Assembly: GCA_026414165.1 (NCBI GenBank)
Contig: JAOAJN010000001.1
Span: 1-50,421, forward strand
Direction: 5' to 3'
DNA from: Candidatus Methanomethylicaceae archaeon
GTDB taxonomy: Archaea; Thermoproteota; Methanomethylicia; Methanomethylicales; Methanomethylicaceae
Length of the DNA: 50,421 nt
The number at the start of each line of letters is the position of its first letter. Position 1 is the first letter of the stretch. Of this stretch, positions 1,309 through 34,211 are shown piece after piece. A program made the position numbers and the translations under genes. The notes beneath the pieces were generated by a model that saw only the letters and a list, made by a program, of their open reading frames with translations, ran no database searches and was not told the DNA's origin.

Positions 1309-2076
1309 TTACGAGAGCACCCTCAGCCCCGCTTTGTCGTATATCTGCTTCAGGTTCTCTAGAGAATAATCAGTATAGTGCCTGGCTAAAACACTCCTGG
1401 GTATTCGACCTTGGAAGGCGTCTATGAAGCGGTCGGGGACGCCCAAACGCGCCATCTCGTTGGCGAACCAGAAGCGGAGCGACTTGGGCGTAATGTGCAT
1501 GCCAGTCTTGTGCTGGGCGATCCTGAATATGGCGCTCCTGTAAGACTGCCTGAACGGGAAGAGCTTCCCGCCCCTCTTCGGGTCCTGCCTTACCTTCAAG
1601 TAATCCTCAAGGGCTTCCTGGCACTCCTCATTGAAGAATGAGTACCAGGTCCTCTTGGTAGTTGTGAGCTTGTTCGGCAGTATTGCACTCTCTTCCAAAT
1701 CCACCTGGCTGATTTCCAGGTCGAGGACCTCCGAGCGCCTCCTCCCAGAAGTCGCGTACATCAGGAATAGGGCCCTCTCTTTTTCGGCGTCCAGCTCGAA
1801 GAAGAACTCTTGGAGCTCCTTCTTTGAGTACAGCCTGGGAGGGAGTGGCTCCGCCCTGCAGAACCGGAAGGTCCTCACAACCTCTGGCTTACCCAAGAAG
1901 TCTCGGAAGTAGACCCTCAGGGACTTTAGGTAGTTGTTGTAGGTAAAAGGGTTTTCCACGCCGGCCAAGAAGTCCCTTATCCTGGAGGTTGTCGGCTCGC
2001 CGCCGCAGAACTCCAATACGTTCCTGATGCAGATTCTGTGCCTCCTGACCGACTCGGGCCTCAGCCTGAGGTCCAC
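1309..2076 (-). CDS. Archaeal tyrosine recombinase / integrase
   Basis: This 255-residue protein is a tyrosine recombinase, the enzyme class that inserts archaeal viruses and plasmids into tRNA genes. The first catalytic Arg is in ATSGRRRSEVLDL (about 108-120), the second Arg box is HITPKSLRFWF, and the nucleophilic Tyr is in LARHYTDYSLENL near the C-terminus. The N-terminal 95 residues match a SAM-like DNA-binding domain. The listed start is GTG at 2076. The frame stays open about 34 codons further upstream without an ATG, and the sequence just before the start (encoding EEFEKFCRV) matches the broken integrase at 27990, so the true N-terminus may lie upstream. The gene begins about 140 bp from the 3' end of tRNA-Arg(TCG), the likely attachment site. 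Confidence 0.88.
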   Translation of the reverse strand: MDLRLRPESVRRHRICIRNVLEFCGGEPTTSRIRDFLAGVENPFTYNNYLKSLRVYFRDFLGKPEVVRTFRFCRAEPLPPRLYSKKELQEFFFELDAEKERALFLMYATSGRRRSEVLDLEISQVDLEESAILPNKLTTTKRTWYSFFNEECQEALEDYLKVRQDPKRGGKLFPFRQSYRSAIFRIAQHKTGMHITPKSLRFWFANEMARLGVPDRFIDAFQGRIPRSVLARHYTDYSLENLKQIYDKAGLRVLS

Positions 2077-14807: not shown

Positions 14808-15662
14808 TTAATTCGCCTTTCCAATTTTAATTTTAAATGACAGTGCGCTAGCAAAAACCAAAGGCAAAAAATAACTTCCCTTTGCCCTTGAAGTGTCTAT
14901 ATATATCTTTGGCAGCGCGGAAGCATAAGCCCCAAAACTATCAATGTTTGCAACTAAAACCAATGATCTGAATATTATGTTCCCTATTATTCCATCAGGC
15001 ACCAACAATATAGATACACCTGATTTTATTGCTCTTTCAATCTCTATGCCGAAGTTCTCAACCTCCAATCCGATCTCTCTGATTTTTTGCGTTAATAAAA
15101 TCGAAAATGAAAGTAGTTGATCCACTTTGGGGCTACGTCCAACATCCTCAAGTCTTCCTCCAGATATTATACCGACTCTATATTGCATACCCAAAAGCTC
15201 TGCCAAATCTTTTCCTTTTACAGCAAAAGTCAAGAGATCTTCGATTGTATCGCCCTCATCTATACCAACGGGCGCAAGCATAATAGGTCTTCCTTCTATT
15301 TCCATTAATGTTATGCGATAAAGGTTGTTACAATTAAAGGCTACGCGAAGACTCGAAAGAATGGCACCTGCACTTAAATTTCCCCTAACAGCCGCATCGA
15401 CTATCCCCTCTTTGAGCATATTTACTATGGCATGTTCAGGACGATCCACAATCACTATTGGGATCTCCTCCACAATCTCTGAAGGTCGCGAATCACGAAC
15501 CGAAACTAATACTGGGTCTGCATACCCCTCTCTCTTAACAAATAAGGCCGAATTCATTACCCTCTCAGAGGATGGTATATCTGGGTTTAGACCTATTGCA
15601 ACTTTCGCCCTATTGGCCTTTGCTAGCGAATAGATGTTAGGTCGATTTTTGTCCTTAATCAT
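14808..15662 (-). CDS. mtxX: MtxX / methanogenesis marker protein 4
   Basis: A 284-residue protein of the MtxX family (methanogenesis marker 4), distantly related to phosphate acetyl/butyryltransferases. Recognisable parts are VAIGLNPDIPS (about 17-27), DAAVRGNLSAGAILSSL (about 88-104), LAPVGIDEGDT, VGIISGGRLEDVGRSPKVDQ (about 173-192) and the C-terminal LVPDGIIGNIIFRSLVL. MtxX was named from a methyltransferase-linked locus in Methanosarcina, but its reaction is not established. The ATG start overlaps the 3' end of aksA by 8 bases, so the two are coupled. Given the fold, an acyl-phosphate or acyl-CoA transfer in CoB assembly is conceivable. A decayed second copy is present at about 33620-33945. 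Confidence 0.82.
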   Translation of the reverse strand: MIKDKNRPNIYSLAKANRAKVAIGLNPDIPSSERVMNSALFVKREGYADPVLVSVRDSRPSEIVEEIPIVIVDRPEHAIVNMLKEGIVDAAVRGNLSAGAILSSLRVAFNCNNLYRITLMEIEGRPIMLAPVGIDEGDTIEDLLTFAVKGKDLAELLGMQYRVGIISGGRLEDVGRSPKVDQLLSFSILLTQKIREIGLEVENFGIEIERAIKSGVSILLVPDGIIGNIIFRSLVLVANIDSFGAYASALPKIYIDTSRAKGSYFLPLVFASALSFKIKIGKAN

Positions 15663-23120: not shown

Positions 23121-23555
23121 TTAACAATTTAATTTTAGTAAGAACCTCTCCGCCTCTTCTACTAGATCCTTCAAATTTCTGTATGAAATTTTGGTAAGAA
23201 TTTCATCTTTAGTCATCCAAACATATCCGTCATGTTCCGCCGAGATCTTGACTTGATCGGTATTGGTCTCTCCAAGGAAATATACTACCTTTTTCTTTAT
23301 AATATTCCCTTTCCATCTGTAAAAATATTCGATAGTTTTTTTGAAAAAAGGAACGACTTTAATTTTTACCAGCCCGGTCTCTTCTCCGAGCTCTCTAAGC
23401 GCAGTTGTGAACTCGTCTTCACCTGGTTGCTGCAAACCTTTTGGTATGTCGTATTTCCCCCTTTTTTTTAGGAATAGGTATCTAATTTTGCCGTTTTTAT
23501 GAAAGACCAAAAAGCCTGCAGACCTCTCAGTTTTATAGCCCAACTGTGCCACCAA
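23121..23555 (-). CDS. Nudix hydrolase, Ap4A-pyrophosphatase-like
   Basis: A 144-residue Nudix protein. The Nudix box GLQQPGEDEFTTALRELGEETGL (given here by its key residues G41, E47, R53, E54, E57, E58, approximate) fits GX5EX7REUXEEXGU. The N-terminal ERSAGFLVF and the YDIPKG segment resemble bis(5'-nucleosyl)-tetraphosphatases. It would remove dinucleoside polyphosphates or another NDP-X compound. It is a single gene with no operon partner. Confidence 0.85.
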   Translation of the reverse strand: MVAQLGYKTERSAGFLVFHKNGKIRYLFLKKRGKYDIPKGLQQPGEDEFTTALRELGEETGLVKIKVVPFFKKTIEYFYRWKGNIIKKKVVYFLGETNTDQVKISAEHDGYVWMTKDEILTKISYRNLKDLVEEAERFLLKLNC

Positions 23556-23801: not shown

Positions 23802-26507
23802 GTGGCTAATATGCCAATAATGAATTATGCAATCGATCTAGCGCATGTAACTAAAGATCATTCAGGGAAAGTGGGGCATAAAGCAGCTAATTTAGGAGAG
23901 CTGTTGTGCTATGGTTTTTCAGTTCCAGTAGGCTTCGTAGTTAACACTGACGCATATTCATTTTTTTTAAAAGAAAACAATCTTGAAAAATTAATAAATA
24001 GCACAATAATTGACCTGCCATCAGATCCGCACTCCTTAGAAAAAATTTCTAAAAAGATTCAGACTATGATTGAAAATGCTGAACTTCCCACCGAGATTGC
24101 CGATGAGATAATAACTCATTATAAAGCACTCCCAACTCAAAACGTCGCAGTTCGGTCATCCGCAACATCTGAAGATCTTCCTCAGGAGTCTTTTGCTGGA
24201 CAAATGGAGACTTTTCTGAATATAAAGGGCGAAAATAACTTGCTTAAGCAAATTAAAAGATGTTACGCCTCTTTATGGACCTCTAGGGCTATTGCTTACA
24301 GAAACAAAAGCAAAATCCCACATGATGCTCTTAAGATGGCAGTAATAGTTCAAGTAATGGTAAAAGCCAAAAGTTCAGGCGTTCTTTTTACGGCAGATCC
24401 TGTTTACTCGGAAAGAACTCGTCTGGTAATCGAGTCTAACTTTGGTCTTGGCGAATCATTAGTCTCTGGTCGAGTAGCGCCAGACCGATTCATAGTTTCT
24501 CGCAGCGGAGAGCAGCTAAAAATCATAGCAAGGGAGATCGGAACAAAAAGTCATTTTACAGATCTAAACAAATTGTCTGGATTGGATTATTTAGAACTAG
24601 ATCCGGAAAAGCGAAGACTACCGTCCTTAAAAGACGAAGAGATCTTAAAACTTGCAGAGTTAGGCTGCACAATAGAAAAATTATTCGGATGCCCACAGGA
24701 CATTGAGTGGGCAGTAAGCGAAGACGGAATGATCTTCATACTTCAAACAAGACCTATAACATCGTTGTTCAAGGTGGCACCTGAAGATGAAATTGTATGG
24801 AGTAGGGGTTATTCTGATGACTACTGGAATGATCCAGTAACGCCTTTGTTCTTTGGGCTGTTAGGAGATCACCTAACAAATGTTGTTAATATAGAATTAA
24901 ATAAAATCATGGGTTATTCCGCCCAAGGCTTAAAGAATATGGATCAGCTTCTAAGACTACATCGTGCCCACGTATATTTCAACCTCGAAGTACTCAAGAA
25001 GAAGGTTGAATACGAAATCCCGCCTTTTTTACGCAATGAAGACATTCTTAACTACTTTCCCGACGGCGGCGGACCTTACGGTAAGGAGACTATTAAGAAC
25101 CTGCCTTTCCGACTAAGAAAAAGGATAATTGCCGAACTGCGCGTAATGCTATTTGATCCGCAAGGCTCTATTATAAAGACAGCTAAGGCTTATCAAAAAT
25201 GGACCAAAGATAAATTCGAACCGTTCTTGGAGAACTTTGATTCTAGAATGGCAGAACTAGATAAGAAAAGATGTCTTTTAGAGTATCTAAACCTTGCGAA
25301 AGAACTGGACCAGTTGATGGTGGGACACTTCCGACTCGTTCGTTATGGCATTCCCGTTCATAATATTGGTATGAATTTGATGGCGCAATACCTTTTGGCA
25401 AGATTTCTCGGTAAGGATGTGTCTTTGACCAGATATCCGTTACTTATCTCTGGACTTGAGCATAAAACCAGTGAGACCAATGATCGAATCAAAAAACTAG
25501 CCTTAAAAGCCAACTCTTCCGCTAAGGTTAAAAAGATTATTTTGGAAGTCCCGTCCGATCGTCTATTTGAAACTCTTTCCTCTGCAATGGACTCTGAGAT
25601 AATGGCCTTCATGCAAGAGTTGAGAAGCTTCATTAAAGACTTTGGTGTTCGCGGCTTCACAAGGGAGCCCTATTACCCCCGATGGTGTGAAGCTCCTCAA
25701 TACATCTTTGACGTCTTGAAGTCACTAATTAAAGAGGATGGGAAGATTGTAAACGATTCTGAAAATTTAAAGAAGCAGAAAGAAACTGAAAAAGAGATAG
25801 AACAAATGATAAAATCGCTACGTTTTGGTTGGTTTAAGTGGAAAATATTTTCTATTATTTTAGGTTTTGCAAGGAAGTATATCGTGTTTCGAGAAGACCA
25901 ACGTTTTAACCTTGACCGCTGGATTACCATGAATCGCAGGATCTATTTGAAAATAGGTGAGATCTTGAAGGATAAGGGCATCTTACAAGACGCAAATGAG
26001 ATATTCTTCCTGACTAAAGAAGAGATTCAAAAATTATGTTCAGATGGATGCTGTTATGATGAACTTAAGAATCTACTTATTTCAATTGAGAAAAGAAAAA
26101 TTGAGTTTTTAAAGTACGAAAATACTACTCCACCGAAATTCTTGCAAGGCATGAGAGAATTTAATGACCCTGTATGTGACCATAAGAAAACATTAAAAGG
26201 AATACCTGCGAGTCAAGGTCTAATTACAGCCCCCATCAGAGTTTTGAAGAGTATAGAAGAGATTCCCCAAGTTCGCGCGGGTGAGATAATTGTTGTCCCG
26301 CGCACAGACCCTGGATGGACTCCTGTATTCTGTAAGATAGGTGGTCTAATAACTGAGACTGGCGGAATTCTCTCCCACGGCGCTGTAGTATCAAGAGAGT
26401 ATGGGATTCCTGCAGTAACCAATATCCCTAATGCATGCCAAATTTTCAAAACTGGTCAAGTAGTGACGATTGACGGGACCAATGGTACAGTAAGCATGGA
26501 TGTTTAA
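23802..26507 (+). CDS. PEP-synthase-like dikinase with rifampin-phosphotransferase layout
   Basis: A 901-residue enzyme. Residues 1-325 form the pyruvate-phosphate-dikinase ATP-grasp domain: KAANLGELLCYGFSVPVGF, VRSSATSEDLPQESFAGQ, SSGVLFTADP and IEWAVSED...LQTRPIT. A long middle region (about 330-800) has no motif I can name. The phosphohistidine domain is at the C-terminus, GGILSHGAVVSREYGIPAV. True PEP synthase has the His domain in the middle and a PEP-binding barrel at the end. Here the order matches rifampin phosphotransferase, in which the middle part binds the acceptor. The acceptor is unknown. The start may be GTG 23802 or ATG 23811. A TATA-like AATCTTTAAG lies near 23747. It is followed after 12 bases by the lipocalin-like gene, so the two form an operon. 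Confidence 0.82.
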   Translation: MANMPIMNYAIDLAHVTKDHSGKVGHKAANLGELLCYGFSVPVGFVVNTDAYSFFLKENNLEKLINSTIIDLPSDPHSLEKISKKIQTMIENAELPTEIADEIITHYKALPTQNVAVRSSATSEDLPQESFAGQMETFLNIKGENNLLKQIKRCYASLWTSRAIAYRNKSKIPHDALKMAVIVQVMVKAKSSGVLFTADPVYSERTRLVIESNFGLGESLVSGRVAPDRFIVSRSGEQLKIIAREIGTKSHFTDLNKLSGLDYLELDPEKRRLPSLKDEEILKLAELGCTIEKLFGCPQDIEWAVSEDGMIFILQTRPITSLFKVAPEDEIVWSRGYSDDYWNDPVTPLFFGLLGDHLTNVVNIELNKIMGYSAQGLKNMDQLLRLHRAHVYFNLEVLKKKVEYEIPPFLRNEDILNYFPDGGGPYGKETIKNLPFRLRKRIIAELRVMLFDPQGSIIKTAKAYQKWTKDKFEPFLENFDSRMAELDKKRCLLEYLNLAKELDQLMVGHFRLVRYGIPVHNIGMNLMAQYLLARFLGKDVSLTRYPLLISGLEHKTSETNDRIKKLALKANSSAKVKKIILEVPSDRLFETLSSAMDSEIMAFMQELRSFIKDFGVRGFTREPYYPRWCEAPQYIFDVLKSLIKEDGKIVNDSENLKKQKETEKEIEQMIKSLRFGWFKWKIFSIILGFARKYIVFREDQRFNLDRWITMNRRIYLKIGEILKDKGILQDANEIFFLTKEEIQKLCSDGCCYDELKNLLISIEKRKIEFLKYENTTPPKFLQGMREFNDPVCDHKKTLKGIPASQGLITAPIRVLKSIEEIPQVRAGEIIVVPRTDPGWTPVFCKIGGLITETGGILSHGAVVSREYGIPAVTNIPNACQIFKTGQVVTIDGTNGTVSMDV

Positions 26508-26519
26508 GAGGTAAGACGA

Positions 26520-27485
26520 ATGGAATCTTTGACTCATAGACCAAAAAATCATAAGGAATGGAACGAGTCCTATTATTTTGTTTTCTATGATAAAAAACAA
26601 AAAATTGGCGGAATGACACGTTTAGGCTTCAAGCCAAACAAAGAAGAAGGTATGACATTTCTTTTTCTCTTCTTACCAGATGGAACTGTGGCAGGATACC
26701 AAGCTCTGGAAAAGAAAAGAAACTATCCAGAAGGGAGGTCATTACGTGTTGGATCTATGGTCCACGAGCCTCTATCTGATGACAAATGGAAATACCACTT
26801 TGAAGACAAAATGATCGTGGTCAGAAATCCTGAGGATCTTCTAAAGATTAACAATAATCCTCAACTAATTTTGAAGGTATCGCCAGTAAAGTTGGATCTC
26901 TTTTTCACACCAATAAATGAAGTTTACGAGTATAGTGAACACATGACTGAAGAATCAAGGAAAGTGGGCGAGAGATCTGGAGACGCTCACTGGGAACAGA
27001 TAGCCACAATAGATGGCGATATTATTTTTGGAGAAGAGCGATATCAAATAAAAGATTGCATGGGACAAAGGGATCACACTCATGGCATCCGGGAATGGAC
27101 ACACATAGATTACTGGTTTTACTACGTGATATGGTTTTCTAAGAACCTTGCAGTTAATCCTGCTGCAATAATAACAAATGATGGAAGAAGATCAATAGGT
27201 GGCTTCATATACAAAAATGGAAGAAATGTACCCATAATGGATATAAAAATAATAGATCAAAAATTCCGAGACTATTTAATCCCTATAAGCTCAAAGTTGG
27301 AGCTAATTGATGCGTTGGGGAACAAATACATATTAGAGGGAAGAGCGGGACCTGTCATACCTGTGCCTTTTAAAGATGAAGAGGGGAACTTCTCAGTTCT
27401 AACTCAGTCATTTGGAAGTTTCAAGTTGGATGGACTGGAAGGAGGGTACGGCTCTTTTGAAACGTTAAGGAAAAAGAGTGAGTGA
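26520..27485 (+). CDS. Lipocalin/CrtC-AttH-like protein (DUF7064/DUF7065-like)
   Basis: A 321-residue protein with an N-terminal half containing WNESYYFVFYDKKQKIGGM and a C-terminal half containing MGQRDHTHGIREW (about 180-192). The Arg-Asp-His triad and the beta-rich character resemble the double-lipocalin proteins related to CrtC (hydroxyneurosporene hydratase) and AttH, now split among DUF7064/DUF7065. Members often act on or carry lipids and isoprenoids. No signal peptide. It directly follows the dikinase gene, so the pair probably modifies one shared hydrophobic molecule, which is inference. The family assignment is by motif resemblance and should be read as tentative. Confidence 0.5.
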   Translation: MESLTHRPKNHKEWNESYYFVFYDKKQKIGGMTRLGFKPNKEEGMTFLFLFLPDGTVAGYQALEKKRNYPEGRSLRVGSMVHEPLSDDKWKYHFEDKMIVVRNPEDLLKINNNPQLILKVSPVKLDLFFTPINEVYEYSEHMTEESRKVGERSGDAHWEQIATIDGDIIFGEERYQIKDCMGQRDHTHGIREWTHIDYWFYYVIWFSKNLAVNPAAIITNDGRRSIGGFIYKNGRNVPIMDIKIIDQKFRDYLIPISSKLELIDALGNKYILEGRAGPVIPVPFKDEEGNFSVLTQSFGSFKLDGLEGGYGSFETLRKKSE

Positions 27486-27590: not shown

Positions 27591-27721
27591 TGCGGGGGGA
27601 GGGATTTGAACCCTCGAAGGCCTACGCCACAGGATACCCTATCCACCCAAGCCTATGGATCTTAAGTTTGGCACGCCTTTATGGGCGTCCTGCCCCGTTG
27701 TCCTGACTTGGGAACCCCCGC
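27591..27721 (-). tRNA. tRNA-Leu (anticodon TAA) with probably two introns
   Basis: On the minus strand: acceptor GCGGGGG/CCCCCGC, D arm CCC..GGG, T arm GAGGG-TTCAAAT-CCCTC, and a long variable arm typical of Leu. The anticodon stem CAGGA/TCCTG is interrupted. The loop CTTAAG|A (anticodon TAA) is flanked by an insert of about 21 nt before it and about 25 nt after it. Removing both leaves an 85-nt class II tRNA. Exact splice points are my best fit. CCA is not encoded. Confidence 0.82.
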
Positions 27722-27867: not shown

Positions 27868-27942
27868 GGGCCCGTGGCGCAGACTGGATAGCGCGTCGGC
27901 CTTCTAAGTCGATGGTCGAGGGTTCAAATCCCTCCGGGCCCG
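27868..27942 (+). tRNA. tRNA-Arg (anticodon TCT), left border of the nitrogen island
   Basis: Acceptor GGGCCCG/CGGGCCC, anticodon stem TCGGC/GTCGA (imperfect) with loop CTTCTAA (TCT), T arm GAGGG-TTCAAAT-CCCTC, discriminator G and encoded CCA at 27943-27945. A decayed integrase follows it, and a decayed second copy lies at 34060-34135. Confidence 0.92.
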
Positions 27943-27989
27943 CCATCAAAACTTCTTTGTCCGAGCTAAAGAAGCCTTACTAAGAAAGG

Positions 27990-28395
27990 CGCTCTCTTCA
28001 ACAGCCACGAAAGGGCATTTTACCGCCTGGGTCAACTAGTGCTTTACAAGTTCTGCAGGGTGGACCTACACTTCAAGCCATCATCAATAAAGAGCAAGTG
28101 TGTATACATCTCGAGGATGCTGAGGGAGGTCGGCTCTGATCCGACCGTAGAGGAGCTTAAGGGGTTTCTTGGTCTCCTTCGAGAACCTCTTGTCTTATAA
28201 TAAATGCGTTAAAGCCCTCAAGCTTTAATTCAGGGACTTCCTGAGGGACTTGAAGTATAAGGAAGTTCAGGCTCTGCAGGGTTGATTATGGGATCATGAG
28301 GCTCTACTCCAAGAAGGAGCTCCAGGAATTCTTATGCTAGCTGGGCACAGAAATAGAGCCCTCTTCCTGACATACGCAACTTCTGGGAGAAAGCT
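27990..28395 (+). pseudogene. Decayed tyrosine integrase
   Basis: Broken by several stops and frameshifts, but fragments in order match the intact integrase at 1309-2076. They are KFCRVDL near 28047, FRDFL near 28230, RLYSKKELQEF near 28302-28335 (identical to the intact protein) and RALFLTYATSGRK near 28355-28395, where it stops before the later catalytic residues. It starts just after the 3' end of tRNA-Arg(TCT), the arrangement expected for an element integrated there. Confidence 0.8.
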
Positions 28396-28396
28396 T

Positions 28397-28650
28397 CCGA
28401 TCCTTCGGCGATCTTCAGCAATACCGACAAATGGTCGAGATCCAGCACAACATGTTCGCCGCTTTGTAGCATCTCCTAGTAGATCTTTAGATCTTTAGGC
28501 GATCTACGTCTCACTTTTCAGTTTTCTGAATTCATAATAGAGGTAGAGTGCCTTCCTTATAAAATTACTTTGATTCTCGCCGCAGGAGGTCCGTTCTTGT
28601 AATATCCTTTCGAACTCTGGGCTGAGCGAAATGCTCGTGCGTTTGGACAC
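28397..28650 (-). pseudogene. Decayed ribbon-helix-helix regulator
   Basis: From GTG 28650 the minus strand encodes an RHH-type N-terminus (SKRTSISLSPEFERIL, then QSNFIRKALYLYYEF) ending at a stop at 28504. In another frame, after a second stop, the sequence continues with EMLQSGEHVVLDLDHL to about 28397, where it is fused to the integrase remnant. It could also be read as a 48-residue stand-alone protein. The fused continuation favours a pseudogene. Confidence 0.6.
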
Positions 28651-28741
28651 ATACAAAAAGGGGCGGTAGATAAATATTTTATTACATTTTCATAAAAAAA
28701 TATTAAATTTTATTACTAACTCCAACTTTTTAATAAATAAT

Positions 28742-28754
28742 TTTTTATATAAAT
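28742..28754 (+). promoter_or_regulatory. TATA-box promoter of amt-glnK-glutamate synthase
   Basis: TTTTTATATAAAT at about 28742-28753 is a strong archaeal TATA box. Transcription would start near 28778, just before the AAAGAGG ribosome-binding site (28781-28787) that selects ATG 28796. The 28651-28790 spacer is extremely A+T rich in contrast with the genes that follow. Confidence 0.6.
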
Positions 28755-28795
28755 CATCGGACTATTGATGTTTTGTATAAAAAGAGGAATTGAAT

Positions 28796-30124
28796 ATGAA
28801 CATTGGGTATGCAGAATCAGCAATATTCTACTCGAACGTTTATACCACAGTGGTTTCGGCGACCTATGGGATAGAGAACGCCATAGACACGACATGGATA
28901 CTGATTGCTGCCTTTCTGGTATTCTTCATGAATCTCGGATTCGCAATGCTGGAGAGTGGGATGCAGAGGGCCAAAAACACTAGCAACATATGCATGAAGA
29001 ACCTCGTGACCCCTGCGATCGGAGGTTTGGCATTCTTCATTGTCGGGTTCAGTTTGGCATTCGGGTCGGATATATTCGGGTTCCTAGGGAACCCAATCGA
29101 GTTGGCAATGCTTGGAAGGCTTGGGGCGCTTGACATATGGCCGAACACAAACGTCACTTCATATGCCTACTTCCTTTTCCAGGTTATGTTCGCGGCAACA
29201 GCGGCTACAATAGTTTCGGGTGCGGTTGGCGAGAGGATAAAGTTCATTGGGTATGTGCTCTTCACCGCGATAATACTGACCCTTGTGTACCCATTGGTGG
29301 CTCATTGGGTGTGGGGCGGAGGTTGGCTCGCGAGTATTGGGATGGTCGACTTTGCGGGATCTGCAGTAGTCCACCTCACTGGAGGTGCGGCCGCACTTGC
29401 TGGTGCTATTGTGCTAGGACCCAGGATCGGCAAGTACGCTGACGGTAAAATTAACCTAATACCAGGGCACAACATATCACTTTCAACAATCGGAGCGATG
29501 GTGCTCTGGTTCGGGTGGTTTGGTTTCAATCCAGGAAGCACTGCAGCTGCAACCATCCCGAGTATTGCGACAATAGCAATAACTACCAACATCGCGGCAG
29601 CTGCGGGGGCCTTAGGGGCAATGGTGACTGCATGGATCCACATAGGAAAGCCCGATGTTGGTATGACCATAAACGGGCTCCTTGCTGGTCTTGTAGCAAT
29701 AACTGCAGGATGTGCTAGCGTTAGCCCAGGAACGGCGATGGCAATAGGCAGTATTGCTGGGATCCTTGTCGTATTCTCAGTCGAATTCATCGATAAGGTC
29801 CTGAGGGTCGACGATCCGGTGGGCGCGATATCTGTCCATGGCGTCGGCGGAGCTTTTGGGGCGCTTGCGGTCGGCATCTTCGCTGAAAGTTCATTCTCTG
29901 GCGGTGTGAGCGGGCTTTTGTTTGGCGGCCGGACTTCACAGCTGGCGATCCAATTGGTGGGAGTCGGTTCGATATTTGCATTCGTGTTTGCCACTTCCTA
30001 TCTGGTATTCAAGGCGATTGACTATACAATAGGTCTGAGGGTCAGCGAGGAAGAGGAGATTATCGGTCTTGACATCGCTGAGCACGGCATGAGCGCATAC
30101 CCAGACTTCGAGGTGCCATCGTGA
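28796..30124 (+). CDS. amt: Ammonium transporter Amt
   Basis: An Amt/Rh-family channel of about 442 residues with roughly 11 transmembrane helices. Signature stretches are FAMLESGMQRAKNTSNICMKN, ADFAGS-type pore segments (VDFAGSAVVHLTGG) and FGWFGFNPGST with the family's conserved pore region, plus the later His in GAISVHGVGGAFGALAVG. It conducts ammonium/ammonia into the cell as a trimer. ATG 28796 is preferred over TTG 28790 because AAAGAGG lies 8 bases upstream. It is followed after 11 bases by glnK, the PII protein that blocks Amt when nitrogen is plentiful. The G+C-rich third codon positions differ visibly from the surrounding genes. Confidence 0.95.
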   Translation: MNIGYAESAIFYSNVYTTVVSATYGIENAIDTTWILIAAFLVFFMNLGFAMLESGMQRAKNTSNICMKNLVTPAIGGLAFFIVGFSLAFGSDIFGFLGNPIELAMLGRLGALDIWPNTNVTSYAYFLFQVMFAATAATIVSGAVGERIKFIGYVLFTAIILTLVYPLVAHWVWGGGWLASIGMVDFAGSAVVHLTGGAAALAGAIVLGPRIGKYADGKINLIPGHNISLSTIGAMVLWFGWFGFNPGSTAAATIPSIATIAITTNIAAAAGALGAMVTAWIHIGKPDVGMTINGLLAGLVAITAGCASVSPGTAMAIGSIAGILVVFSVEFIDKVLRVDDPVGAISVHGVGGAFGALAVGIFAESSFSGGVSGLLFGGRTSQLAIQLVGVGSIFAFVFATSYLVFKAIDYTIGLRVSEEEEIIGLDIAEHGMSAYPDFEVPS

Positions 30125-30135
30125 GGCGATAAGGA

Positions 30136-30588
30136 ATGAAACTGGTAATAGCATACATAAAGCCTGAAAAACTCGAGGACGTCAAGAGGGAGCTGGACTC
30201 CAGAGAAGTGTTCAGGATGAGCGTAACCAAGGCAAAGGGGTGCGGCGAGACAAAGGGGTACGTCGAAAGCTATCGGGGCGTTAAGAAGGACGTTTACCTC
30301 CTGCCTAAACTAAGGCTTGAGATTGCTGTAAACGACGACTTCGTGGACACGGTAGTTGAAGGGATAATTAAATCAGCTAGAACTGGAAAGATCGGAGACG
30401 GCAAGATCTTCATCTTGCCCCTAGAGGAATGCATTAGGATCAGGACAGGCGAACGTGGACCTGATGCAGTGGGAGGATGGAGCAGGTATTCTAGCAAACA
30501 TGCCCCAAACCAAGAGGGCCAGAGGGCGGACGAGCAAAAGAAAAACAATGTAGACAAAGACTTAGCGTCTTTCAAACAAGAGGTATGA
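30136..30588 (+). CDS. glnK: PII nitrogen regulatory protein GlnK
   Basis: A 150-residue PII protein. Residues 1-112 are the standard trimeric PII fold, with the T loop at about 37-55 (YVESYRGVKKDVYLLPKL) and the ATP-binding stretch TGKIGDGKIFILPLEE. The T loop has Lys-Lys where the uridylylated Tyr51 of enterobacterial PII would be, so control is probably by ATP/ADP/2-oxoglutarate alone, as in archaeal GlnK proteins. There is a charged C-terminal extension of about 38 residues (from SKHAPNQEGQ) not usual for the family. The position directly after amt fits a direct Amt regulator. Confidence 0.94.
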   Translation: MKLVIAYIKPEKLEDVKRELDSREVFRMSVTKAKGCGETKGYVESYRGVKKDVYLLPKLRLEIAVNDDFVDTVVEGIIKSARTGKIGDGKIFILPLEECIRIRTGERGPDAVGGWSRYSSKHAPNQEGQRADEQKKNNVDKDLASFKQEV

Positions 30589-30591
30589 GTG

Positions 30592-31503
30592 ATGTGCGGA
30601 ATAGCAGGCGTATTGCTTAACGGAAAGGGAGAGATAGGTCTCTTCCTCTCAGTGATGCTGGGAGGATTGCAGCACAGGGGGCTCGATTCGGCAGGTGTTG
30701 CCCTTTACAGGAGCGAAGAGATGCCGGGCGACGAGTTCATGATAAGAGTATTCACAAGAGATGTTATAGGCGCACTTAGCAAGATCTCGGCTGCAATAGC
30801 TAGCGCGGGCGGGGATATTAGGAACATAAAGCTCAATTCTATAAAGGGCTACAGCTTCGACCTCTACACAGTCAGGGCGCATGAGAAAGACCTGCCCCAG
30901 ATGGTCAAGAACATTAATGCCACCGAGCTCTCGAAGGTGCTGAGCATCGGCAGAAAGATGGATATAATAAAGGATACAGTCTCCGTGGAGGAGCTCGATA
31001 GGAACTTTAAGGTACGTGACTTTATAGGTAGCCATGGCATTGGACATGTAAGATTCTCGACTGAGAGCCGCGTCGACCTTTTCCACGCCCACCCGTTCCA
31101 GTCCTTCGACCACATAGACGTGGCCTTGGTTCACAACGGTCAGATCACGAATTACTGGAAGGCGAGGGAAAGGCTCGAGCAGAAGGGGGTCAAATTCCAA
31201 ACTGAAAACGACTCGGAATTAATTGTGCACTACATAACTGACAGGCTCAAGGACGGCGAGGCGCTCGATGAAGCACTGAAGGCATCCGTAGAGGATCTTG
31301 ACGGACCTTTCTCCTACGTATTCTCGACAGAGTGTGAACTCGGAATGGTAAGAGACAAGCTCGGACTGAGACCAATGGTCATCTTAGAAGGCGAAGAGAT
31401 TAGGGCAGTCGCCTCGGAGGAGAACGCCTTGCGTCTTTTGAATAAGAAAGGCGTCATCAGGAACGTTAAACCAGGTGAGGTAATTTGCTGGAAAACAGTA
31501 TAA
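30592..31503 (+). CDS. Glutamate synthase, glutaminase (class II amidotransferase) subunit
   Basis: About 303 residues of a GATase type II domain. The start is ATG 30592, which puts Cys directly after Met (MCGIAGVLL), the nucleophile exposed after Met removal. GTG 30589 would place it one residue further in. Further motifs are GLQHRGLDSAG, GHVRFSTESR (Arg of the substrate pocket) and LVHNGQITNYW. It releases ammonia from glutamine for the synthase encoded next. The 3' end overlaps that gene by 19 bases. In archaeal-type glutamate synthase the glutaminase is a separate polypeptide, as here. Confidence 0.88.
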   Translation: MCGIAGVLLNGKGEIGLFLSVMLGGLQHRGLDSAGVALYRSEEMPGDEFMIRVFTRDVIGALSKISAAIASAGGDIRNIKLNSIKGYSFDLYTVRAHEKDLPQMVKNINATELSKVLSIGRKMDIIKDTVSVEELDRNFKVRDFIGSHGIGHVRFSTESRVDLFHAHPFQSFDHIDVALVHNGQITNYWKARERLEQKGVKFQTENDSELIVHYITDRLKDGEALDEALKASVEDLDGPFSYVFSTECELGMVRDKLGLRPMVILEGEEIRAVASEENALRLLNKKGVIRNVKPGEVICWKTV

Positions 31504-33599
31504 AGAGAATAGATGCAAGTGGAATGAGTGTCAGGGAGCTCAACTTGGCTCTCAAATTGGCTACTGATGGAGGGCGCATTTTAATAGAAAATCCGAAGGG
31601 AATGCACCATATTGCAGCGGGACTCGTAACAAAATGCACAGTGGAGATCGAAGGGTCTGTCGGTTACTTTGCAGGGACGATGATCGATGGACCGTTCATC
31701 AAGGTCAGGGGCAATGCCGGCTGGTTCTTGGGAGACAATATGACTGCTGGCGAGATAGTTGTCGAAGGGCACTCCGGTAACGGAACTGGTCAAGGGCTAT
31801 ACGGCGGAAGGTTGGTTGTCAGGGGGGATTGCGGGGACAGGGTCGGTGCACTGATGAAGAATGGTTTAGTGGTTGTAGGAGGAGACTCAGGAATAATGAC
31901 TGGACTTTACATGATGGGGGGAGAGATCATAGTATTGGGAAGGCTCGGCGAGAGTGCGGGTGAATCGATGGTAGGCGGGAAGATATTTTTCTCGGGACCA
32001 GAGCCGACACTCGGTAAAAACGCAAATGTCGAAGAAGTGACCGATACAGAGCTCGAACATGTCGAAAGGTTGCTAAGGGACTATGGACTTGCGACCCCAA
32101 AAATGAGAAAGATTGTCCCAGAAAACCCGAGGTACTTCCGAAGATCTGAGGGGAACATTTGGAACATCAGGAGGGAGAGGAACAGATACAAAGTGGAGAT
32201 TGACCATGGAGTATGCGAGGTCTGCGGGGCATGCGCACGCGTATGCCCGCAACAAGTATTCAAGGAAGTCAAGCAGGGATATATGGCTCCTATAAACGAC
32301 TTCGAGTGCGTCGGGTGTGAGACCTGCGTGGAGCACTGCAGACAGAGGGCGGTGAGAGTCTATCCTGTCCATGAGATTGGAAGATCGACCTGGACGAGAC
32401 GGGAAATCGACGAAATCCAGATCAAGGCGGCAATAGGCAGAGCATTAGTGAGGGGCATGGGGGCATGGAATAGGTTCCCTCATTTCGACGATCTGGTATT
32501 TCTCTGTGCCCAGAACTCTAGACCACCAATTGACCACTACAGGGAGCCATGTGAAACAGAGATAGTCCTGGGCAAAGGACGAGCCGAGAGACCGCTGAGG
32601 TTGGCCGCGCCAATTCTGGTGGGGGCCATGTCGTTCGGTGCTATGAGTAAAGAGGCTAAGCTCGCAGTAGCAAAGGCAACATCAAAGATCGGAATCCCTA
32701 CGAACACAGGAGAGGGGGGAATGCTACCGGAAGAGAGAGCGCTTGCTTCCATACTCATCGCACAATATGCCTCAGGGAGGTTCGGTGTCTCGGCTGAGTA
32801 TCTTCGCTCTGCTGATGCGGTTGAGATCAAGATCGGACAAGGCGCAAAAGGTGGTCAAGGAGGGCTACTCATGGGCGAGAAGGTTACAGAAGAGGTTGCT
32901 AAGGTCAGGGGCTTGCCGCCAGGATCGGACGCGATCAGCCCTGCGAGGCACCTGGACATAGTAGGTCCGGAGGACTTGAAGATGAAGATTGAACAGCTCA
33001 GGGAAATCACGGATTGGAAAGTCCCAATAGTTGTAAAGTATTCTGCAGGAAGGGTCAGGGATGACGTGAAGATAGCGGTCAAGGCTGGAGCGGACATCAT
33101 CGTAATCGATGGCAAACAGGGCGGTACTGGAGCGGCTCCGGACATTGTTATCGAGCATGCCGGTTTGCCCACTCTTCCTGCACTAGTCGAGGCAGAGAGA
33201 AGCCTAAAGGAGCTCGGAGTTAAGGACAAGGTGAGCCTGGTGATATCTGGCGGAATAAGGAATGGGGCTGATATTGCGAAGGCCCTTGCTTTGGGAGCGG
33301 ACGCCGTAGCAATCTCAACAGGGGTGCTAATTGCGATGGGCTGTAGAACCTGCGGGTTGTGCTCCACAGGAAAGTGTTCGAGGGGGATCACGACCCAGGA
33401 TCCAGCGCTCAGGAAGCGCCTCAAAGTAGAGGAGATGGCAGCCAGGGTTGAAAATTACCTAAGGGCAATAATAGAAGAGCTCAAGATGTTCACCCAGCTC
33501 TCAGGCAAGACTTCAGTCAGGAGCTTGGATAAGGATGACCTCAGAGCGCTAACTACAGATGCGGCTGCTATAACTGGTGTAAAACTGGTAGGGAACTGA
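31485..33599 (+). CDS. Glutamate synthase, GXGXG-ferredoxin-FMN synthase fusion
   Basis: A 704-residue protein combining three parts. Residues 1-205 are a GXGXG beta-helix (repeats such as GNAGWFLGDNMTAGEIVVEG). About 225-300 form a two-cluster ferredoxin domain (CEVCGACARVCPQ and CVGCETCVEHC). About 320-680 are the FMN-binding TIM barrel of glutamate synthase (GAMSFGAMSKEAKLAVAKA, NTGEGG, KIGQGAKGGQGG, QGGTGAAPDI), with Cys residues of a 3Fe-4S site in CRTCGLCSTGKC. It makes glutamate from 2-oxoglutarate and ammonia using reduced ferredoxin-like electrons. The GXGXG domain precedes the FMN domain, the reverse of bacterial GltB. TTG 31485 is the likely start, inside the glutaminase gene. Confidence 0.9.
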   Translation: MLENSIKRIDASGMSVRELNLALKLATDGGRILIENPKGMHHIAAGLVTKCTVEIEGSVGYFAGTMIDGPFIKVRGNAGWFLGDNMTAGEIVVEGHSGNGTGQGLYGGRLVVRGDCGDRVGALMKNGLVVVGGDSGIMTGLYMMGGEIIVLGRLGESAGESMVGGKIFFSGPEPTLGKNANVEEVTDTELEHVERLLRDYGLATPKMRKIVPENPRYFRRSEGNIWNIRRERNRYKVEIDHGVCEVCGACARVCPQQVFKEVKQGYMAPINDFECVGCETCVEHCRQRAVRVYPVHEIGRSTWTRREIDEIQIKAAIGRALVRGMGAWNRFPHFDDLVFLCAQNSRPPIDHYREPCETEIVLGKGRAERPLRLAAPILVGAMSFGAMSKEAKLAVAKATSKIGIPTNTGEGGMLPEERALASILIAQYASGRFGVSAEYLRSADAVEIKIGQGAKGGQGGLLMGEKVTEEVAKVRGLPPGSDAISPARHLDIVGPEDLKMKIEQLREITDWKVPIVVKYSAGRVRDDVKIAVKAGADIIVIDGKQGGTGAAPDIVIEHAGLPTLPALVEAERSLKELGVKDKVSLVISGGIRNGADIAKALALGADAVAISTGVLIAMGCRTCGLCSTGKCSRGITTQDPALRKRLKVEEMAARVENYLRAIIEELKMFTQLSGKTSVRSLDKDDLRALTTDAAAITGVKLVGN

Positions 33600-33619
33600 A
33601 GTAGATCGACTCCTTGTCC

Positions 33620-33945
33620 CCTTTTTATTGATTTTCTAGCTCAAGGTGCTTGCCGAGATCAATGGCAACAGGCAACTCGTTTTAGATCGAGGTATCTAAA
33701 GGTCTTCGGCAGGACTCGCTCAATCACCATAGCTTTGGATCTTGCCCACGAAAACTACCTGAAAGAGGTTCCCGAATATGCCTTCACATGCGAGTATCAA
33801 AGTAAAGCCCTCATCGACCGTCCACTCTATATCCACCCCAAAGTTTTCTGCCTCGATACCTTTCGATTTCAGTTTGTTGACTGTCGCATGTCTTTTCCAA
33901 GTATTCTGTAGACGCACAATGTCTTTTCTTATCCTCGCGGCGTCC
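33620..33945 (-). pseudogene. Decayed second copy of mtxX
   Basis: The minus strand from 33945 contains GIEAENFGVDIEWTVDEG and LACEGIFGNLFQVVFVGKI, aligning with GLEVENFGIEIERAIKSG and LVPDGIIGNIIFRSLVLVA of intact mtxX at 14808-15662. After a stop at 33720 the same frame continues with ASPAEDL and SCLLPLISASTLS, matching the C-terminal YFLPLVFASALS with further stops. The N-terminal two-thirds is missing. The divergence from the intact copy suggests an old duplicate or a foreign gene brought in with the island. Confidence 0.75.
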
Positions 33946-33949
33946 TGCG

Positions 33950-33968
33950 CGTTGTCCTGACTTGGGAA
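33950..33968 (-). repeat. 19-bp fragment of the tRNA-Leu gene
   Basis: The 19 bases at 33950-33968 are identical to 27696-27714, the D-arm region of tRNA-Leu(TAA), in the same orientation relative to the nearby tRNA-Arg copy. With the decayed tRNA-Arg at 34060 it indicates that the whole tRNA-Leu/tRNA-Arg segment was duplicated. Confidence 0.7.
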
Positions 33969-34059
33969 TCCAGCCTTTCAAAAGATTAGGAGCGGACCAG
34001 TATTAAGTTTTTGGCTAATATGGAAATATTTATTGGAATAGCGCTTTTTAATCACGTCA

Positions 34060-34135
34060 GGGTCCATGGCGCAGACTGGATAGCGCTTTGGTCTTCTAAG
34101 TCGATGGTCGGGGTTTTAAATCCCCGTTTCGTCGA
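34060..34135 (+). pseudogene. Decayed tRNA-Arg (TCT) copy, right border of the island
   Basis: The core (ATGGCGCAGACTGGATAGCGC and CTTCTAAGTCGATGGTCG) is identical to tRNA-Arg at 27868, including the TCT anticodon. The acceptor strands GGGTCCA and TTTCGTC no longer pair, and the T arm has lost its TTC and one base pair. The product is probably not functional. Confidence 0.85.
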
Positions 34136-34211
34136 TTTAAAAAAATAGAAAATCTATCTAACATATCCCACAAATTTTTAGCCATGTTCGTTTGACATAT
34201 AATCAATACTG

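Follow-up and report, generated by a model that had tools for sequence, protein, structure and literature searches.

Why does an archaeon with an intact mtxX gene carry a second, broken one beside a set of nitrogen-assimilation genes? The original prediction, made on the 50,421-nucleotide stretch of contig JAOAJN010000001.1 that we analyzed (the window), placed this broken copy at the right end of an island and argued that a methanogen-specific gene implies a methanogen donor. MtxX has been reported in nearly all methanogens and in very few other archaea (PMC4153887), and we found weak matches to its profile TIGR03270, below the cut-off, outside methanogens too. The host genome encodes McrA (1005 bits), and the recipient is therefore itself a methanogen. 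Since it also has its own mtxX, a duplicate is conceivable and a second mtxX alone does not discriminate a methanogen donor, so that the logic of the prediction is weak on this point. The host family also includes Methanomethylicus and Candidatus Methanosuratincola (our genus g2, including G004, G010, G020 and G021).

Extent and state of the mtxX remnant

The profile TIGR03270 (methan_mark_4, that is, MtxX) matches the host genome at two places, 14874-15449 and 33696-33881, both on the minus strand. The first lies in the intact resident gene (14808-15662, minus), which is vertically inherited, with 81-83% identity to the same genus, and which adjoins a homocitrate synthase-like gene, as is usual in the family, without glt genes. 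The second covers profile positions 122-185 with an E-value of 1.7e-5 and contains stops; it scores 23.6 bits against a curated cut-off of 190 and has no full-length open frame. When resident MtxX was compared with the whole window by tblastn, it aligned at 33875-33630 with 41% identity over 86 aa (E 3e-12; runner-up E 0.04), and Methanosuratincola MtxX queries gave 53-64% identity with E-values down to 3e-28. The proposed frame-tolerant comparison with MtxX thus returned significant alignments rather than none, and both the presence of a broken second mtxX and its clear divergence from the intact copy were borne out.

The locus was predicted correctly, but its extent (33620-33945, with no strand given) needs correction. 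The remnant occupies 33636-33937 on the minus strand and corresponds to the last ~40% of the gene, ending at the natural TAG stop (33636-33638), while the first ~60% is missing. In the DNA alignment, the mtxX homology reaches 33937 and stops at a 5-bp CCTCG that is common to a tRNA-Leu stump. With this 5' truncation, one frameshift near 33880, two internal stops and a score below the curated cut-off, the remnant is a pseudogene. It resembles the MtxX family (TIGR03270/arCOG00854) in matching the C-terminal part of the profile, but differs in no longer being a gene. A decayed mtxX in a methanogen is also known from Methanosaeta concilii (MCON_2260, PMC4153887), for which no intact copy is reported, whereas here an acquired tail stands beside an intact resident mtxX.

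Donor of the block

To the left of the remnant, four intact genes lie on the plus strand. These are amt for an ammonium transporter (28790-30124, 444 aa), glnK for a P-II protein (30136-30588, 150 aa), gltA for the glutamate synthase amidotransferase subunit with GATase and ACT domains (30589-31503, 304 aa), and a gltB-like glutamate synthase gene with GXGXG, ferredoxin and Glu_synthase domains (31485-33599, 704 aa). Divergent from amt, and facing away from it, is the remnant of a donor ribbon-helix-helix gene (28392-28650, minus), which is cut where the chromosomal block begins on the left, keeps the N-terminal 86 of 175 residues and has a frameshift and a stop.

In seven Methanosuratincola genomes (G004, G010, G014, G016, G018, G020 and G021), mtxX lies tail-to-tail with gltB at a gap of about 110 bp or less. 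The gene order of this genus is tRNA-Arg, tRNA-Leu, several genes, a homocitrate synthase-like gene and mtxX, then gltB-gltA-glnK-amt tail-to-tail with it, and then gene g12552. The window order, amt-glnK-gltA-gltB followed by the mtxX tail, matches this cluster, and the spacing between the stops of gltB and mtxX is 36 bp in the window and much the same in Methanosuratincola, with 33 bp in G014 by match coordinates. Because the conserved gltB/mtxX junction of Methanosuratincola is reproduced here, the remnant is the donor's neighbor gene and not a host duplicate. Two mtxX copies on one contig, 18 kb apart, might suggest that the resident gene was duplicated and one copy decayed. However, the remnant is closer to Methanosuratincola MtxX than to the resident protein, and it faces gltB as in that genus. 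In the tree of MtxX tails, which gave the proposed placement relative to the resident copy, it falls in Methanosuratincola at 98/97, on a long branch that would be expected for a decaying copy. Tree and synteny together rule out the duplicate, and we consider it almost certainly wrong.

The rest of the block gives the same answer. Positions 28393-33873 are colinear with G010, G004 and G014 at 78-87% DNA identity. The island proteins are 90-93% (GltB), 87-89% (GltA), 86-88% (Amt) and 93-94% (GlnK) identical to those of Methanosuratincola, the basal G016 excepted, whereas the host baseline against this genus is about 50% for MtxX and mostly 46-76% for other neighboring proteins. In a tree of GltA and GltB, the island falls within Methanosuratincola (100/100) and branches above G016 (83/99). 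The GC3 of the island is 56-62%, against ~38% in the host surroundings and ~70% in donor gltB, which suggests donor DNA part-way toward the host composition. The island is separated from two Methanosuratincola species by synonymous distances of 0.8-1.3, similar to the distance between those species (0.6-1.1), so that the donor would be an unsampled relative of them. The low dN, with a dN/dS of about 0.05-0.09, indicates that the cargo is under purifying selection. On these sequence comparisons, we read the block at 28393-33937 as donor DNA from the Methanosuratincola lineage. The remnant nests in this lineage, as does the block as a whole, and the conclusion that the donor was a methanogen stands, proven by the gltB/mtxX junction, by the trees and by the change between host and donor sequence at two tRNA-Arg copies described below.

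On the other hand, an ancestral second mtxX or amt-gltB cluster might have been kept vertically here and lost in the sisters. G022, from a sister family, has two mtxX genes, and genus g3 also has amt and glt genes next to mtxX or gene g12552. This explanation is contradicted by the identity of the cargo to Methanosuratincola and its nesting inside that genus, by the donor-like base composition and the donor-type tRNA-Leu/tRNA-Arg flank, and by the distance of the G022 copies from the remnant; we regard it as extremely unlikely. The second mtxX of G022 was also rejected as the source of the remnant, being distant in the tree. The two G022 genes (L073, L074) are intact and strongly diverged. At the ancestral place in G021 itself, amt, glnK and gltA have been lost, as has the N-terminal part of gltB, which survives as a remnant with stops (L078 8660-9435).

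tRNA boundaries and insertion site

To the left of the block lie an intact, intron-bearing tRNA-Leu of host type (27592-27721, minus), read from the sequence and called by neither ARAGORN nor Rfam, and an intact host-type tRNA-Arg (TCT) at 27868-27943 (plus), the insertion target. To the right, the mtxX homology runs at 33933-33937 through CCTCG into a donor-type tRNA-Leu stump (33933-33974, minus; 5' part only), then into a donor-type spacer and a second, degenerate tRNA-Arg (TCT) at 34060-34138 (plus). The latter is uncalled by ARAGORN and scores 25.3 bits with the Rfam tRNA model (below 29). The two tRNA-Arg copies form a direct repeat of 65 nt with 88% identity, starting at 27868 and 34060, whose exact core is undefined. 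The remnant does lie at the right end of the island, as predicted. Further left, PEP-synthase-like and DUF7064/DUF7065 proteins are encoded at 23802-27485, between a cluster ending at 23555 and the tRNA-Leu; the loci compared in the relatives lack counterparts of them.

The flanks of the two tRNA-Arg copies were compared in a two-by-two test. The left copy has host sequence upstream and donor sequence downstream, and the right copy has donor sequence upstream and host sequence downstream. Matching scores were 42-201 against shuffled maxima of 24-33, and every wrong-side score was at or below the shuffle level. Within the genes, the left copy is of host type at every diagnostic site, while the right copy, donor-type in its 5' half, carries the donor letter at two sites there but that of the host at position 44. 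These letters would not result from a perfectly reciprocal exchange with the G014 tRNA; in our reading, the genomes sampled do not include the true donor, and the right copy has decayed. The same-genus G001 and G003 show an uninterrupted, empty site, so that, as in tRNA-integrated islands, a foreign block adjoins a tRNA and is absent from close relatives. In the donor-type genomes G014 and G021, the tRNA-Arg/tRNA-Leu pair has the matching orientation and is separated from mtxX by about 7-9 kb.

Could the block be an assembly chimera of two co-occurring genomes? The host genome is a metagenome-assembled genome of 42 contigs, 85.7% complete, and the repeated tRNA-Leu/tRNA-Arg could misjoin contigs. 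However, host sequence flanks the block on both sides, the donor mtxX, tRNA and ribbon-helix-helix gene are decayed here, unlike in the Methanosuratincola genomes compared, and GC3 is already intermediate. We consider a chimera very unlikely.

The integrase remnant

tRNA genes are common targets of archaeal tyrosine recombinases, with the site used lying in the anticodon loop, in the T loop or at the 3' end (PMC8371274). Directly behind the intact tRNA-Arg, at one end of the island, lies the decayed N-terminal half of such an enzyme (27944-28392, plus). It is 70% identical over 69 aa to an intact G021 protein of 347 aa, which carries PF00589 and starts at the same tRNA. Pfam gave no match on the joined remnant, and its integrase nature follows from the match to this intact protein. 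It is nearest to the Methanosuratincola TCT integrase and is absent at the site in G001 and G003. The locus points to a tRNA-Arg integrase family as the likely carrier, although the remnant could instead belong to an older element of the host. An att repeat of the tRNA was sought in a 15-kb stretch of G021, and none was found. G021 also has, next to its intact integrase and tRNA-Arg, a tandem direct repeat with a spacing of 4,082 bp (L107 1909-7877). The repeat contains unknown ORFs of 121, 134, 336 and 218 aa and may be an element that occurs twice. An intact tyrosine recombinase elsewhere in the window (1309-2076, minus), 60% identical to the G021 integrase, touches a tRNA-Arg(tcg) at 2209-2286, an arrangement common to G001 (L095) and G018 (L096).

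The same donor block could also have entered as ordinary DNA, by homologous recombination at tRNA-Arg and an illegitimate left joint, with the integrase remnant as a bystander. The tRNA-Arg offers an identical stretch for exchange, the joint at 28392/28393 shows no visible core site, and integrases like that of the remnant adjoin several tRNA genes across the host family. Against this, both the affinity of the remnant to the Methanosuratincola TCT integrase and its absence from G001 and G003 connect it with the transfer, and the geometry of a circle accounts for the four flanks together. We regard the homologous route as possible but rather unlikely.

Discussion

We consider it very probable that the remnant is the tail of a donor mtxX, and that a piece of donor chromosome was inserted at the host tRNA-Arg(TCT) and later trimmed. 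The piece, from a member of the Methanosuratincola lineage outside the genomes sampled, would have carried the ribbon-helix-helix gene, amt, glnK, gltA and gltB, then, facing gltB, mtxX and the homocitrate synthase-like gene, further genes, tRNA-Leu, tRNA-Arg and the integrase gene. It would have entered as a circular molecule by one crossover in the recipient tRNA-Arg(TCT), so that on the left the host tRNA-Leu/tRNA-Arg would lead into the donor integrase gene, and on the right the donor tRNA-Leu/tRNA-Arg would lead into host DNA. The host/donor switch at the two tRNA-Arg copies and the empty sites fit a circle that entered through a single crossover, and we consider such an intermediate likely, with good confidence. 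We moderately favor a crossover catalyzed by the adjacent integrase following faulty excision over one by homologous recombination.

Because mtxX and tRNA-Leu lie ~7.4 kb apart in G014, donor genes appear to have been deleted here, relative to donor-type genomes, the loss covering the 5' part of mtxX, the 3' part of tRNA-Leu and what lay between them. The deletion may have used the CCTCG repeat, these five shared bases being weak evidence for its mechanism. Host homologues of the deleted genes lie at 15-23 kb of the window. Afterwards, the mtxX stump, the integrase gene, the ribbon-helix-helix gene and the second tRNA-Arg would have decayed while the nitrogen-assimilation genes stayed intact. 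The host genome encodes a glutamine synthetase, so that the acquired glutamate synthase has a partner and the operon may work in the recipient.

In specialized transduction of the lambda gal type, chromosomal DNA adjacent to the att site is joined to the integrase side of the element and then enters the chromosome of a new host at that same site. The present locus shows the same joining and the same-site insertion; the donor chromosome is colinear from the attachment tRNA outward and fused to the integrase side, in the order and orientation of G014 apart from the probable internal 7.4-kb deletion. It differs from lambda gal in being archaeal, in passing between genera and in an integrase that is now decayed. 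Archaeal tRNA-gene islands and integrated elements (PMC8371274; Thaumarchaeota set, PMC6563490) share the tRNA target, the tRNA-touching tyrosine recombinase, the duplicated tRNA sequence at the other end and the lineage-specific insertion. In contrast, the cargo here is donor chromosome (a core operon, its neighbors and the donor tRNA pair) instead of element genes, and the second copy is a whole degenerate tRNA instead of a short 3' repeat. Our literature searches yielded nothing on horizontal gene transfer in Methanosuratincola or on a Methanomethylicia ammonium transporter. The locus is a fresh example of an already known kind of event.

In summary, the mtxX stump allows a single locus to show which genus was the donor, where its DNA entered, what geometry the crossover had and what was trimmed later. 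The recipient gained a full amt-glnK-glutamate synthase module from another methanogen genus of its own family; glutamate synthase was not found in the same-genus G001-G003, which are incomplete genomes. We give about even chances to the full account, in which a tRNA-Arg integrase mobilized ~13 kb of chromosome by faulty excision and moved the complete ammonium-uptake and glutamate-synthase operon between these genera, with trimming thereafter. If true, this would be a natural, specialized-transduction-like transfer among Methanomethylicales methanogens.
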